Positions 51,784 through 56,599 of a stretch of 64,000 bases of DNA are shown in pieces. A model generated the notes under the pieces. That model had not been told where the DNA came from. It did no database searches and saw nothing but the letters and a program-made list of their open reading frames with translations. Source of the DNA: Polynucleobacter arcticus. Its GTDB lineage: Bacteria > Pseudomonadota > Gammaproteobacteria > Burkholderiales > Burkholderiaceae. The translations under genes and the position numbers were made by a program. The stretch covers positions 1,967,702 through 2,031,701 of the forward strand of contig NZ_CP028940.1 in assembly GCF_013307205.1 (NCBI RefSeq). The letters run 5' to 3'. Numbering within the stretch: the first letter of the stretch is position 1; each line of letters starts with the position of its first letter.

Positions 51784-52614
51784 CTACTTATTCAGACTCA
51801 AATTATCAGCAATAGCCAAGACAGCATCCGCCTGATTGAGTGAGTAGAAGTGCAATCCGGGAGCACCGGCGACTAAAAGCTGGTCACAAAGATCAGTCAC
51901 GACTTGTTCTCCAAAAGCCCGAATTGAAGCGCTGTCATCACCATAAGACTGCAAACGCAAACGAATCCAGCGTGGAATCTCTGCGCCACAAGCATCTGAA
52001 AAACGCAGTAACTGCGTGCTGTTGGTAATCGGCATAATGCCGGCAATCACGGGTTGAGTCACACCTAAGTTATATGCCTCATCTACAAAGCGAAAATAGG
52101 CATCGCTGTTATAGAAATACTGAGTCACTGCTGAATTAGCCCCAGCCTTCATCTTCTCGACAAAGAAATGGATATCACTTGCAGGTGATTTAGCCTGAGG
52201 ATGGCATTCCGGATAAGCGGCCACATCAATATGAAACCAATCGCCCGTTTCTGCACGAATAAATTCAACTAATTCATTAGCGTGATGGAACTCGCCATAC
52301 TGACCCATGCCAGATGGCAAGTCGCCACGCAAAGCCACAATACGTTTAACGCCTAAAGCTTGATATTGCTTCAGCATTTCGCGCACGCTTTCACGTGAGC
52401 TGCCGACACAAGATAGGTGTGGAGCTACCGCTGCACCAGCAGCATGAATATCACTCACTACCTTTAATGTGCCAGATTGAGTAGAGCCACCGGCACCAAA
52501 AGTCACAGAATAAAAAGCGGGCTTCAGCGTTTCACTAAAACGCTCGCGTACGAGATGTAACTTATTCTCACCTTCAGGTGTTTTTGGAGGGAAGAATTCA
52601 ACGCTTAATTCCAT
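51784..52614 (-). CDS. metF: 5,10-methylenetetrahydrofolate reductase
   Basis: MetF makes 5-methyl-THF, the methyl donor for MetH, using NADH and FAD. The 276-residue protein has the opening LSVEFFPPKTPEGE, then FGAGGSTQSGT, then IVALRGDLPSGMG, then AVTQYFYNSDAYFRFVD. All are standard for the family. It lies 55 bases after ahcY on the same strand, so it is likely under the SAH riboswitch too: high SAH would raise both SAH hydrolysis and methyl-folate supply. That link is an inference. Confidence 0.95.
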   Translation of the reverse strand: MELSVEFFPPKTPEGENKLHLVRERFSETLKPAFYSVTFGAGGSTQSGTLKVVSDIHAAGAAVAPHLSCVGSSRESVREMLKQYQALGVKRIVALRGDLPSGMGQYGEFHHANELVEFIRAETGDWFHIDVAAYPECHPQAKSPASDIHFFVEKMKAGANSAVTQYFYNSDAYFRFVDEAYNLGVTQPVIAGIMPITNSTQLLRFSDACGAEIPRWIRLRLQSYGDDSASIRAFGEQVVTDLCDQLLVAGAPGLHFYSLNQADAVLAIADNLSLNK

Positions 52615-52669: not shown

Positions 52670-54115
52670 TTAATAACGATAGTGCTCAGTCTTGTATGGG
52701 CCTTCCTTCGTGACACCAATATAAGAGGCTTGCTGATCAGACAGTACAGTTAATTGCGCATTCAATGTCTTCAACTGCAAACGCGCTACCTTCTCATCCA
52801 AATGCTTAGGCAGGGTGTAAACACCGACTGGGTACTTGTCTGTACCAACTGCATTCCATAACTCGATCTGTGCAATCACTTGGTTCGCAAATGAAGAGCT
52901 CATCACATAAGATGGGTGACCTGTACCGCAACCGAGGTTGACCAAGCGACCTTTTGCCAAGATGATGATGCGCTTCTCGGGATTGCCATTGGCTGCTGGG
53001 AAAATTACGTGATCTACTTGTGGCTTAATTTCTTCCCACTTGTATTTTTCAATGCCAGCAACATCAATCTCATTATCAAAGTGGCCGATATTACAAACGA
53101 TGGCTTGATTTTTCATCTTGATCATATGATCATGCGTAATCACATGGTAGTTACCTGTTGCAGAAACAAAGATGTCCGCTTTATCAGCAGCGTAATCCAT
53201 GGTTACTACACGGTAGCCTTCCATTGCCGCTTGTAGTGCGCAAATTGGATCCACCTCAGTAACCCAAACCTGAGCAGACAAAGCGCGCAATGCTTGCGCT
53301 GAACCCTTACCCACATCGCCGTAACCGCAAACCACTGCAACCTTACCGGCAACCATAACATCGGTGGCGCGCTTGATCGCATCAACCAAAGACTCTCGGC
53401 AACCATAGAGATTATCAAATTTGCTCTTCGTAACAGAATCGTTAACGTTAATTGCTGGGAACTTCAATTCACCCTTGGCAAACATTTGATACAAACGATG
53501 AACACCAGTAGTGGTTTCTTCGGTAACGCCTTTAACTTTTTCTAAGCGTGTGGAATACCAAGTTGGATCTTGCGCCAATTTATTCTTAATGGCTGCAAAC
53601 AAAATGGTTTCTTCTTCACTGCTAGGGTTATTTAAGCAGGCTTGATCTTTCTCAGCACGGGCGCCGAGGTGTAATAACAAAGTGGCATCGCCACCGTCAT
53701 CCAAAATCATATTAGTAAAGCCACCGTCAGCCCATTCAAAAATACGGTGGGTGTAATCCCAATACTGCTCAAGAGTTTCACCTTTGATTGCGAACACAGG
53801 CGTGCCATTAGCAGCGATCGCTGCAGCAGCGTGATCTTGGGTAGAGAAAATGTTGCAAGAAGCCCACTGCACTTGAGCGCCGAGCGCTTCCAGCGTCTCG
53901 ATCAATACTGCAGTTTGAATGGTCATGTGCAATGAACCAGTAATACGTGCACCGCGCAATGGCTGCTGCGCTGAGAACTCGTCACGAATTGCGATGAGGC
54001 CTGGCATTTCAGTTTCTGCAATGGCGATTTCTTTACGACCAAAGTCAGCCAAAGAAATATCGGCAATAGCGCAACGGGTTGCTACAAAGTTATTTAAATC
54101 GGAAACGGTATTCAT
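52670..54115 (-). CDS. ahcY: Adenosylhomocysteinase (SAH hydrolase)
   Basis: AhcY splits S-adenosylhomocysteine to adenosine and homocysteine. The 481-residue protein has the family start [16 protein letters not shown], the catalytic blocks TQDHAAAAI and [13 protein letters not shown], the NAD site [18 protein letters not shown], and the C-terminal [18 protein letters not shown]. It ends KTEHYRY, the canonical C-terminus with Lys and Tyr for NAD. The ATG giving [10 protein letters not shown] is preceded by GGAG at 5 bases. A longer frame upstream belongs to the riboswitch leader. SAH riboswitch upstream, metF downstream. Confidence 0.97.
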
Positions 54116-54120
54116 GAATG

Positions 54121-54186
54121 CTCCAGCTAAATACAATCCAACGCTGGAGTAGAAACTCGCTAGCCATTGAATCATGGGTTAGCGAG
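54121..54186 (-). promoter_or_regulatory. Expression-platform helices between SAH aptamer and ahcY start
   Basis: Two stem-loops lie between the aptamer and the start codon on the minus strand. GCTGGAG (54121-54127), which contains the ribosome binding site, can pair with CTCCAGC (54143-54149). GGCTAGCGAG (54156-54165) can pair with CTCGCTAACC (54177-54186), one mismatch. The second helix uses bases of the 3' strand of the aptamer, so the two folds compete. This suits translational control by hiding the GGAG. Confidence 0.55.
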
Positions 54187-54287
54187 CGCGGTTGCAATTA
54201 GCAAACTCTGGGGTTACCTGGGAGTCCACTCCCTTCAAGCCTGGGGAAACACTGGTTCTCAGCATTCCTTGCAACGCTCCTTGAAGG
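54183..54287 (-). promoter_or_regulatory. SAH riboswitch aptamer upstream of ahcY
   Basis: On the minus strand, stem P1 is CCTTCAAG/CTTGAAGG (54279-54287 with 54232-54239). Inside it are the conserved GGAGCGTTGCAA and CCCAGGC segments, and after it a GGGAG-tgga-CTCCC hairpin and the distal ACCGCGCTC. GAGCG near the 5' end pairs with CGCTC (54184-54188), closing the pseudoknot. The set matches the known SAH riboswitch (Ralstonia, ahcY) segment by segment. SAH binding turns ahcY on in known cases. Confidence 0.92.
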
Positions 54288-54317
54288 TATGGCGAAATTG
54301 TAATCAATTTCGCCATA
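54288..54317. repeat. 13-base perfect inverted repeat between metK and the SAH riboswitch
   Basis: TATGGCGAAATTG and CAATTTCGCCATA form a perfect 13-base stem with a 4-base TAAT loop. It directly abuts the aptamer and lies about 50 bases after the metK stop. There is no U-run, so it is not a plain intrinsic terminator; it may be an operator, an RNA-end protector of metK mRNA, or part of the ahcY promoter. Confidence 0.6.
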
Positions 54318-54367: not shown

Positions 54368-55534
54368 TTACAGGCCAGCAGCAGCACGTAATGCAGGTGC
54401 CTTGTCGCACTGCTCCCAAGTAAATTCTGGCTCTTCACGACCAAAGTGGCCATAAGCAGCAGTCTTACGATAAATCGGGCGCAACAGGTTCAACATCTTC
54501 ACAATGCCTTTTGGACGTAAGTCAAAGTGCTCAGATACCAATTGCGCAATCTTTTCGTCAGAGATTTTGCCGGTGCCAAAGGTGCTCACCATCACTGAGG
54601 TGGGCTTGGCTACACCAATAGCGTAAGAGATCTGGATCAAGCACTTGCTTGCTAAACCAGCAGCAACGACGTTCTTCGCTACATAACGACCAGCGTAGGC
54701 AGCAGAGCGGTCAACCTTAGAGGGATCTTTACCGGAGAACGCACCACCGCCGTGAGGGGCTGCACCGCCGTAGGTATCCACAATGATCTTGCGACCAGTC
54801 AAACCACAATCACCCTGTGGGCCGCCGATGACAAAGCGACCAGTTGGGTTCACCAAAAAGTTAATTGCGCCTTTAATCAGATGCTTTGGCAATACAGGCT
54901 TGATGATTTCTTCGATTACGGCTTCGCGTAATTTCTCGAGAGAAATATCTTCATCGTGTTGTGTAGAGAGTACAACCGTGTCAATCGAATCTGGCTTGCC
55001 ATCAACGTAACGTAAAGTCACCTGAGATTTTGCATCTGGGCGCAACCAATTCAAACGGCCATCACGGCGAAGTTGAGATTGACGCTCTACTAAACGGTGT
55101 GACAAATGGATCGGCAAAGGCATGAGTTCTGTAGTCTCATCACAAGCGTAACCAAACATCAAACCTTGGTCACCAGCACCTTGGTCTAGGCCGTCATCAT
55201 GCGCTTTATCTACGCCCTGAGCGATATCAGGGCTTTGCTTGTCATAGGCCACCAATACCGCACAGCCTTTATAGTCAATGCCGTAGTCAGTATTGTCGTA
55301 ACCAATTTCACGCAAAGTATTGCGAGCGACTTGGATGTAATCGACGTTGGCATTGGTAGTGATTTCACCAGCCAAAACAACTAAGCCGGTATTGCACAAA
55401 GTTTCTGCAGCAACACGTGCTGTTGGATCTTGAGCCAAGATGGCATCCAAGATGGAATCAGAAATTTGGTCTGCTACTTTATCGGGATGACCTTCAGAGA
55501 CGGATTCTGAGGTAAAGAAGTAATCATTTGCCAT
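54368..55534 (-). CDS. metK: S-adenosylmethionine synthetase
   Basis: MetK makes SAM from methionine and ATP. The 388-residue protein begins [26 protein letters not shown] with the ATP-binding His. Other signatures are [12 protein letters not shown] and the phosphate loop [19 protein letters not shown]. The start is preceded by AAGGA at 8 bases. It lies upstream of ahcY in the same direction, with its own promoter and what appears to be a SAM-II riboswitch in its 5' leader, so it should be repressed when SAM is plentiful. Confidence 0.97.
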
Positions 55535-55597
55535 TGCATATTCCTTAAAAAAATTAACACGATCTTTGGGACAACTCGACGTGCCAGGAACTACAAC

Positions 55598-55653
55598 GGC
55601 GACGCTTTAGCAGAATTTATGAATCGCCCTGCAAGTTGCCTTAACTCAGCGAT
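55598..55653 (-). promoter_or_regulatory. Probable SAM-II (SAM_alpha) riboswitch upstream of metK
   Basis: On the minus strand: stem P1 ATCGCT (55648-55653) pairs with GGCGAT (55623-55628). The loop is GAGTTAAGGCAACTTGCAG; known SAM-II has GAUUUAACCGUAUUGCA here. After P1 comes TCATAAATTCTGCTAAA; the known Sargasso metX aptamer has UGAUAAAUGUAGCUAAA. GGC in the loop can pair with GCC at the 3' end (55598-55600) as the pseudoknot. Order, spacing and conserved bases all agree, and it begins at the predicted transcription start. SAM-II is known mainly from Alphaproteobacteria. Confidence 0.8.
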
Positions 55654-55659
55654 ATAGAT

Positions 55660-55689
55660 ATTCTATCTGAAAAACGCCCTATTTATCAA
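55660..55689 (-). promoter_or_regulatory. Sigma-70-type promoter of metK
   Basis: On the minus strand, -35 TTGATA (55684-55689), an 18-base spacer and -10 TAGAAT (55660-55665) each match the consensus in five of six bases. Transcription should start near 55653, the first base of the SAM-II-like aptamer, giving a leader of about 120 bases. Confidence 0.65.
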
Positions 55690-55738: not shown

Positions 55739-56599
55739 GTGCGCAAACTACTTCTCAAGCTAACCCTCAATGTCATTGCCGTGTTGCCCCTATTTCTGGT
55801 TCAGACAATTGGCGCTGCTCTGGGAGTGTTGGCCTATGTGGGCTCCAAGCAATATCGATCGCTTTTTCGTCCTCAATACGAAGCCGTTGTTAAAGAGCAT
55901 CATTTACCCAGGCAAATCTGGAGTGCGGCTGCAGCTTCGGGCCAACTCTTCTCAGATAGCCTGTGGATTTGGCGTAACCCACAAAAAGCTCTAGAACTAG
56001 TGGAAGTGCAAGACTGGGACTTAGTTGAGGCAGCCATTAATGAAGGTCATGGCTTGGTGATGCTCACACCCCACCTAGGTGGCTTTGAAATCATTCCTCG
56101 TGTTTTGGCGCAGCACTTTCCGGCAACGATTCTCTATCGCCCATCACGCCAAAAATGGCTTAATGAAGTAGTTGAGGAAGGGCGCGCCTATCCCAATATG
56201 CATTTTGTACCAACCAACCTCAATGGCGTTCGTCAAATGACGCGGGCGCTCACACGCGGCGAAGCAATTGGCATTCTTCCAGATCAAGTCCCAAGTGGTG
56301 GCGAAGGCGTTTGGGTGCCATTCTTTGGGCGCCCTGCTTATACAACCCCGCTACCAGCTCGCCTCGCAAATCGCAACAACACACCGGTTGTGATGTTTAC
56401 GGCCAAACGTAAAGGGCTTGGCAAAGGCTGGCTCATGCAAGCCAAGAGGCTAGGGCCACTTTCTGAAGATTCCACACTGGCAGCTGCCGAACTCAACGTT
56501 GCTATTGAGAACGCAATCCTAGTTGCACCTAATCAGTTCATCTGGGCATACAACCGCTATAAACATCCTAGCGGAGCAGAATTACCTCCGGGTAATTAG
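55739..56599 (+). CDS. lpxL: Lipid A biosynthesis lauroyl-type acyltransferase (LpxL/HtrB family)
   Basis: The 286-residue inner-membrane enzyme adds a secondary acyl chain to lipid A. It has one N-terminal membrane helix (LNVIAVLPLFLVQTIGAALGVLAYV, in pieces VIAVLPLFL), the catalytic His-x4-Glu motif in LTPHLGGFEIIPR, and GILPDQVPSGGEGVWVPFFG. It starts with GTG; an in-frame TAG lies two codons upstream, so no longer start exists. LpxL and LpxM subtypes are not separable here. It is divergent from metK. Confidence 0.86.
   Translation: MRKLLLKLTLNVIAVLPLFLVQTIGAALGVLAYVGSKQYRSLFRPQYEAVVKEHHLPRQIWSAAAASGQLFSDSLWIWRNPQKALELVEVQDWDLVEAAINEGHGLVMLTPHLGGFEIIPRVLAQHFPATILYRPSRQKWLNEVVEEGRAYPNMHFVPTNLNGVRQMTRALTRGEAIGILPDQVPSGGEGVWVPFFGRPAYTTPLPARLANRNNTPVVMFTAKRKGLGKGWLMQAKRLGPLSEDSTLAAAELNVAIENAILVAPNQFIWAYNRYKHPSGAELPPGN

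Follow-up and report, generated by a model that had tools for sequence, protein, structure and literature searches.

A variant SAM-II-family riboswitch predicted ahead of metK in Polynucleobacter arcticus and its relatives

Ahead of metK in Polynucleobacter arcticus the minus strand at 55653-55601 of the window (the whole stretch of 64,000 nt analysed here, positions 1,967,702-2,031,701 of the forward strand of NZ_CP028940.1, assembly GCF_013307205.1) carries what is, judged by sequence comparison, a variant SAM-II-family riboswitch with a target and a consensus that are new within the literature searched. It reads AUCGCU GAGUUAA GGCAACUUGC AG GGCGAU UCAUAAAUUCU GCUAAA GC GUC, and the metK start codon is 67-119 nt downstream of these bases. 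Very probably it acts at the extreme 5' end of the metK mRNA, where SAM would repress metK translation. The product of metK makes SAM. Computation shows homology to SAM-II, conserved pairings, gene context and a match between an anti-Shine-Dalgarno (anti-SD) strand and its target. A sequence-only reading had listed SAM-II motifs in order on the minus strand of 55598..55653, and every base of them is in the sequence as listed.

On the minus strand the genes run metK, SAH riboswitch, ahcY, metF; an acyltransferase gene diverges from them at 55739. One gene row here holds both a SAM-type and an SAH-type riboswitch, the latter at 54288-54177 (minus strand). The features are:

55684-55689, minus strand: -35-like hexamer TTGATA (promoter scan)
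55660-55665, minus strand: -10-like hexamer TAGAAT, 6 nt before P1 (promoter scan and leader comparison)
55601-55653, minus strand: SAM-II-type aptamer (P1, L1, pseudoknot P2, L3), predicted by model R3 at 46.2 bits, E 4.3e-12
55648-55653, minus strand: P1 5' strand AUCGCU, from the sequence; partner 55628-55623, outer pairs covary
55641-55647, minus strand: L1 GAGUUAA, with G8, A9, G10 (U in canonical SAM-II), U11 and U12 in 2QWY numbering; residue roles from PMC3764141 and PMC6061858
55631-55640, minus strand: P2 5' strand GGC AAC UUGC (UUGC at 55634-55631), from pairing across aptamers
55623-55628, minus strand: P1 3' strand GGCGAU, from sequence and covariation
55612-55622, minus strand: L3 linker UCAUAAAUUCU, including ATAAAT at 55620-55615
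55601-55611, minus strand: P2 3' strand GCUAAA GC GUC (GCUAAA at 55611-55606); slid registers score far lower
55586-55600, minus strand: anti-SD strand GCCGUUGUAGUUCCU, pairing with 55545-55530, duplex -18.3 kcal/mol
55579-55605, minus strand: competing hairpin GCGUCGCCG...UGGCACGU, -6.8 kcal/mol, pairs conserved in the 34-row genus alignment
55570-55575, minus strand: GUUGUC, possible genus-level partner of 55640-55635, from pattern matches in genus leaders
55542-55546, minus strand: metK Shine-Dalgarno-like AAGGA, from the sequence
55530-55545, minus strand: SD and start codon region AGGAAUAUGCAAUGGC, anti-SD target by minimum-energy fold and duplex energy
54368-55534, minus strand: metK, methionine adenosyltransferase (NCBIfam metK, 611.2 bits)
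54177-54288, minus strand: SAH riboswitch RF01057 between metK and ahcY (47.3 bits, cut-off 37)
52670-54175, minus strand: ahcY, adenosylhomocysteinase (protein family match)
51784-52614, minus strand: metF, methylenetetrahydrofolate reductase (protein family match)

By the curated cut-off of Rfam, 36 bits for SAM_alpha (RF00521), the window element is not a SAM-II member. The SAM_alpha model does not report it at gathering level, nor is it among the 13 matches that the model gives over the whole genome at E up to 10, and the leader alone has no match among 4227 Rfam families at that limit. At the window metK leader the SAM/SAH (RF01727), SAM-V and SAH (RF01057) models likewise give no match at E <=10, and SAM-V, which we take to be RF01826, is absent from every result table of the Rfam scans that were run. 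Against the same 4227 families, again at E <=10, the leaders of nine relatives gave three matches, all of them SAM_alpha and in register, below cut-off at 19.4, 16.3 and 14.9 bits (L049, L081 and L057 respectively); two further metK leaders reach 21.8 and 20.4 bits. None of the relatives' 31 metK leaders tested (9 + 14 + 8, with E limits of 10, 0.5 and 1) is above the cut-off, the best reported score being the 21.8 bits just given. The element exceeds what chance would give: when the leader was shuffled 20000 times with dinucleotides preserved, a bare core (G..TT[AG], TTG[CT], a 5-bp P1 and GCTAA) turned up 13 times.

Searches of the order and the class brought in canonical SAM-II elements reading GAUUUGA..CAGCUUGC..GCUAAAGCG, many of them, where the 3' side was inspected, with a terminator-like hairpin and U-run following, and several preceding a similar reading frame which in L252 is a match to a Cys/Met-metabolism family. 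Six exceed the SAM_alpha cut-off (L196 44.8, L255 39.7, L265 39.4, L244 37.1, L180 36.9 and L253 36.8 bits); other copies of canonical type are below it, for instance L201 at 33.5, L308 at 33.1 and L256 at 32.0 bits. Twenty canonical terminator-type copies (alignment A4) are the seeds of model R3: six lie under above-cut-off SAM_alpha matches, and 14 are below that cut-off or unreported by SAM_alpha. No seed has metK within 260 nt behind it, and the sole metK match in the seed loci is about 1.7 kb off. These 20 were taken from 29 'canon' entries; six omitted ones overlap seeds, L258:1337-1396, L287:6041-6102 and L264 were left out for an unlike P1 or long inserts, and L261 was classed by script as metK-type.

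The R3 match in the window spans 55654-55599, with the runner-up place there at E 0.017, and over the whole genome the element has E 1.4e-10 and the runner-up 0.14. There is no second SAM-II-like place in this genome below E 0.1, the window copy being solitary. All 41 metK loci given to R3 have at least one match, partly split, the weakest best match having E 0.0085. In the other direction model R2, built solely from metK leaders (alignment A3, for which 43 of the 46 rows extracted were used and L009 and L043 added), matches copies that pass Rfam: L196 with 28.4 bits, E 1.8e-7, and L180 with 24.0 bits, E 3.9e-6. The genus model R1 rests on alignment A2, 34 rows picked for variety from the 60 distinct genus rows of A1, with L091 (internal duplication) and L081 (3' end cut) omitted. 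Since R3 finds metK leaders and R2 finds canonical copies, there is homology in both directions despite the curated cut-off not being reached; as read from these model searches, the window element is homologous to SAM-II and likely works like it. This bears out the proposal of a SAM-II-type aptamer before metK. The sequence-only reading had added that the proposal would fall if a low Rfam score went together with loss of P1 and pseudoknot pairing in related leaders; the score is indeed below cut-off, but in the relatives P1 and the pseudoknot stay paired.

The anatomy of the aptamer was derived from 120 distinct metK aptamers representing 274 elements. Four of the 120 rows, one each from L042, L134, L147 and L322, are false second matches in the same leader, so that a cleaned set has 116; the four are still inside the figures for 120 aptamers, the fold test, the anti-SD permutations and the -10-box count. 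By the strict script rule 10 of the 279 loci with a resolved metK start are without the element; the gammaproteobacterial leaders L254, L260 and L263 failed that rule, yet are matched by covariance models. The inner five pairs of P1 are present in 120/120, a condition imposed by the entry rule. Its sixth pair is AU in 53, UA in 22 and GC in 20 of the 120, and is paired in 99 versus 57 expected, a covariation reached by none of 1000 permutations. In the 34 rows of the Polynucleobacter metK leader alignment both-side changes occur at two of the six P1 pairs. That P1 is kept by pairing and not by sequence, as had been supposed, is thus seen both within the genus and across the 120.

P2, the pseudoknot, consists of UUGC with GC-U-AA together with an extension, P2a, of GRC with GUC, in the window 55640-55638 (GGC, usually GAC elsewhere) with 55603-55601. 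All three P2a pairs are present in 114 of the 120 aptamers (114 of the cleaned 116), and registers slid by one to three bases either way give all three in 0-8 of 120. The GGC/GCC pseudoknot that the earlier reading had thought possible is one of these slid registers (+3), found in 8/120 (8/116 cleaned), and gives way to GUC. At one P2a pair the two bases change together (GC 108, AU 6), with 0/1000 permutations doing as well; the other two vary too little for covariation to be seen, the observed pairing being reached by 41 and 145 of 1000 permutations. Changes consistent with P2a occur in single non-metK loci, GUC/GAC in L225 and AAC/GUU in L235.

Another partner had been considered for the pseudoknot, GACAAC (55640-55635) with GUUGUC (55575-55570). 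A pattern that itself requires GUUGUC matches 86 of 90 genus leaders, but none of the 40 fetched family loci from outside the genus has GUUGUC within 110 nt after the core; this candidate was therefore rejected and the pseudoknot reassigned to GRC/GUC. Within the genus GRCAAC can pair with the downstream GUUGUC (in the window with a duplex energy of -9.7 kcal/mol), and this may be a genus-level competing helix.

Thirteen SAM-II nucleotides are described as completely conserved (U10, U11, U12, U20, U21, G22, C23, G42, C43, U44, A45, A46 and A47; PMC3764141, this and the other papers being cited from excerpts). The window keeps twelve, U 55609 corresponding to the SAM-contacting U44 and A 55606 to A47 in 2QWY numbering, and has G in place of U10. 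That exchange is general: nucleotide 10 is G in 114, U in 5 and C in 1 of the 120 aptamers (G 111 and U 5 of the cleaned 116). The conservation of G8, U11, U12, U20-G22 and G42-A46 was built in by the search pattern and so is not independent evidence. Could the prevalence of G10 signify an aptamer related to SAM-II whose ligand is not mainly SAM, perhaps SAH or both? A variant SAM-I aptamer offers a precedent (PMC10853860), and in SAM-V the like base is described as pairing weakly with the uridine that holds the adenine of SAM (PMC6061858; the match of SAM-V to SAM-II numbering at nucleotide 10 is a reading made here). By the same description, however, the altered base pairs with that uridine with no touch of the ligand; moreover the window keeps U11 and U21, which face the sulfonium, as well as U44 and A47, which contact adenine and methionine, five metK aptamers retain U10, and ahcY in the same row already has a separate SAH riboswitch. 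We consider a change of ligand unlikely. With SAM as the probable ligand, G10 may tune affinity while the ligand contact is kept, because the like base of SAM-V pairs with the adenine-holding uridine.

Where does the transcript start? In the window alone a promoter scan finds two promoter-like sites versus 2.3 expected by chance. Comparison is more telling: of 119 leaders 94 have a -10-like box within the 20 nt that precede P1, against 3 of the 119 with such a box in a control segment, and from the end of the box to P1 the distance is 6-7 nt in 81 of the 94. Viewed by eye, conservation in the genus leaders begins at P1 with the -10-like box ahead. From the placement of the box across leaders the transcript most likely starts with the aptamer. 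A conserved block that directly follows a -10-like box might instead be a DNA operator for a methionine-related transcription factor, several of which are described in Proteobacteria (Leyn 2014, PMC4239095), but base changes on both sides preserve pairing, and the linker between the halves varies in length between about 6 and 60 nt, as fits a pseudoknot in RNA rather than an operator; an operator seems most improbable. L3 is longer in other Burkholderiaceae, where a hairpin is often possible (by eye).

For the SAM-II-family riboswitch, the expression platform would be translational. The anti-SD strand GCCGUUGUAGUUCCU begins directly after the C at 55601 that ends the pseudoknot, and its target AGGAAUAUGCAAUGGC extends from the SD through the start codon into the second codon. 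Across 119 leaders the mean energy is -18.16 kcal/mol for the native pairing against -12.75 for swapped partners, and none of 2000 permutations matches it; thinned to 85 leaders below 75% identity the values are -17.36 and -12.49, again with 0/2000. Taken one by one, native partners are better than 95% of swaps in 41 of the 119 leaders and 31 of the thinned 85. The much closer fit of the strand to its own SD and start codon than to swapped ones suggests translational repression. The competing hairpin at 55605-55579 draws on bases of P2 and on those with which the anti-SD strand begins.

How the aptamer would be coupled to this platform is less plain. In the minimum-energy fold of the window leader (L009) the SD-blocking stem is present, and it forms whether the P2 bases are free or held. 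A fold test over 118 leaders, with bases 50-54 held versus free, shifted the accessibility of the SD by over 0.05 in no more than 13, eight in the predicted direction and five in the opposite one; there being no clear effect, the switching step is something that we infer, and co-transcriptional order may matter for it. The indifference of the stem to P2 is what an element with no ligand at all would show, a conserved hairpin blocking the ribosome-binding site as an RNA thermometer or a protein site for metK autoregulation. Such a hairpin would, however, leave the strongly conserved P1/P2/L1 core unexplained, a core which matches SAM-II models and is found before genes other than metK too, and we regard it as very unlikely.

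In the riboswitch scheme that we infer, with SAM as ligand and repression as the direction of control, transcription would begin at or near the first base of P1, exact start included in the supposition. P1 would form, GRC-AAC-UUGC and GC-U-AAA-GC-GUC would make an H-type pseudoknot, and the L1 uridines would sit in its groove, forming the SAM pocket. At high SAM the pseudoknot would be held, and the strand from 55600 would pair with the metK ribosome-binding site and start codon, blocking translation. At low SAM the P2 bases would be freed for the competing hairpin at 55605-55579, the anti-SD strand would be sequestered and metK would be translated.

In the genus 144 of 151 genomes have a match in a MetK protein search, and 90 leaders were examined, from the 30 best MetK matches and 60 picked for variety; 86 of the 90 carry the element, and the four without it (L082-L085) precede a second metK of 67-69% identity. 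One such second metK is at G000:C1:690918-692072 (L084, 67% identity, leader without the element), with second copies likewise in G008, G039 and G149. At E <=0.1 the genus model matches 281 of the 299 genomes and 21 of the 25 genera in the family, many of the matches being weak (E 0.001-0.03), and the element precedes metK in 39 of the 40 fetched family matches from outside the genus. The exception, L130, has a strong genus-model match (51.3 bits), U at nucleotide 10 and neither metK nor a long frame downstream.

At the level of the order the aptamer model at E <=0.01 matches 220 of 399 genomes and 106 of 158 genera, the gene behind the match being metK or another; among the 69 order loci fetched (L169-L237, out of the 220 genomes with a match, and with L196 and L202 being one place) metK is at the element in 51. 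A sample of one genome per family, chosen by MetK alone, gives 8 of 29 readable metK leaders with the element, from which we take it to be widespread but patchy. Of its 31 genomes 30 are in the locus list; L415 lacks DNA upstream, L396 escaped the pattern and was added to the count on visual inspection, and the unlisted G434 carries the element (L211). A search of the class finds matches in 54 of 369 genomes, including the genome itself and two others of the order; those outside the order include the metK leaders L254, L260 and L263 and the metK start in L246. An exact-pattern search of contigs, in which at least 120 stretches matched, has the element before metK in 74 of 80 loci among the matches listed, with Polynucleobacter, Cupriavidus, Limnobacter, Dechloromonas, Azonexus, Thauera and Inhella among the carriers in those listed.

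The same aptamer type also stands before a small protein that starts MYDC or MFDC (L194, L196 (=L202), L197, L198, L204, L208, L214, L221, L224 and L237), 102-114 aa long where the frame is read from that start; neither Pfam nor NCBIfam has a match for the single full-length copy scanned (L204). Behind the small protein in L194, L196, L197, L198 and L237 comes a frame resembling a MATE transporter, with Pfam MatE confirmed on L194 only. In L239, L244 and L248 the aptamer type precedes an AAA ATPase-like frame, the Pfam match, on a fragment in L244, being weak and below cut-off. On the strand opposite SAM-II copies the Rfam family RF02424 (Bp2_287, 'Burkholderia sRNA') has matches below its 70-bit cut-off, all on the plus strand: L235:670-779 at 39.0, L287:6595-6720 at 38.2, L241:1573-1695 at 35.0 and L244:1580-1688 at 29.8 bits. 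It may be that RF02424 is an antisense RNA, or that a SAM-II element was assigned to the wrong strand when the family was annotated.

Tandems, with a canonical SAM-II copy followed by a metK-type element, occur in L180, L194, L196, L197, L198, L244, L253 and L308, and a terminator-like hairpin follows the canonical copy in all those inspected (L180, L194, L196, L197, L253 and L308). Tandem SAM-II arrangements with mixed platforms are described (PMC9481103), and the canonical plus metK-type pairs of L180, L194, L196, L197 and L308 are alike; the window copy, unlike these, stands alone.

With SAM-II (RF00521) the metK type shares P1 and the H-type pseudoknot, the L1 uridines, the UUGC/GCUAAA core, reciprocal model matches and a methionine/SAM gene context. 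It differs in having mostly G10, an L1 of GAGUUAA (GAUUUG in the canonical A4 copies), a two-base spacing from UUGC to the 3' strand of P1 (109 of 116 cleaned aptamers), P2a as GRC/GUC, a long L3 in other Burkholderiaceae, metK as target and a sub-cut-off Rfam score. A short P2a and a blocked ribosome-binding site are shared with translational SAM-II (Sargasso metX) and SAM-V, but there the SD is described as being within P2a (PMC6061858), whereas in the window element the SD and the start codon would be blocked by a further strand, downstream of the pseudoknot. The SAM/SAH riboswitch (RF01727) also precedes metK in Proteobacteria, namely Rhodobacterales (PMC2864571), and also has an H-type pseudoknot (PMC7367207); unlike it, the window leader and those of nine relatives have no match to its model at E <=10.

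SAM-II is described as binding SAM and rejecting SAH (PMC1273637), and translational (PMC6061858) as well as tandem (PMC9481103) forms are known. It had been suggested that a Polynucleobacter-like host would extend the range of the class, which does not hold, SAM-II being already reported from beta-proteobacteria (PMC2258182, PMC1273637). The suggestion that metK would be a new target has fared better: in the main texts of the open-access literature searched no report of SAM-II before metK was found, and metK is absent from the main text, as excerpted, of a survey that includes a Polynucleobacter genome (PMC8632094). In the excerpts used, Leyn 2014 (PMC4239095) finds SAM_alpha confined to Rhizobiales and Rhodobacterales and describes a separate element of metXZ for the beta-proteobacteria; metK in the latter is stated to have no known regulator, the comparative search of that study for one having failed.

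A bolder proposal, tentative and to our minds with rather less than an even chance, is of a distinct translational SAM-II subclass, marked by a consensus (GAGUUAA, GACAACUUGC, GCUAAAGCGUC) and an SD- and AUG-blocking platform that are its own. The second copy in tandem SAM-II pairs of terminator-plus-RBS type would have given rise to it, G10 would have retuned its pocket, and in many lineages of betaproteobacteria, as well as in some gammaproteobacteria, it would supply the long-missing SAM feedback of metK.

Since SAM_alpha stays short of its cut-off on the window copy and on the 31 leaders of relatives tested, while the aptamer model finds this type in 220 of the 399 genomes sampled from the order, present counts of SAM-II are likely too low. 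In P. arcticus neighbouring genes of one cycle would be under riboswitches of SAM type and of SAH type. For the beta-proteobacteria more widely the element offers a testable answer to the missing regulation of metK: SAM repressing its own synthase.
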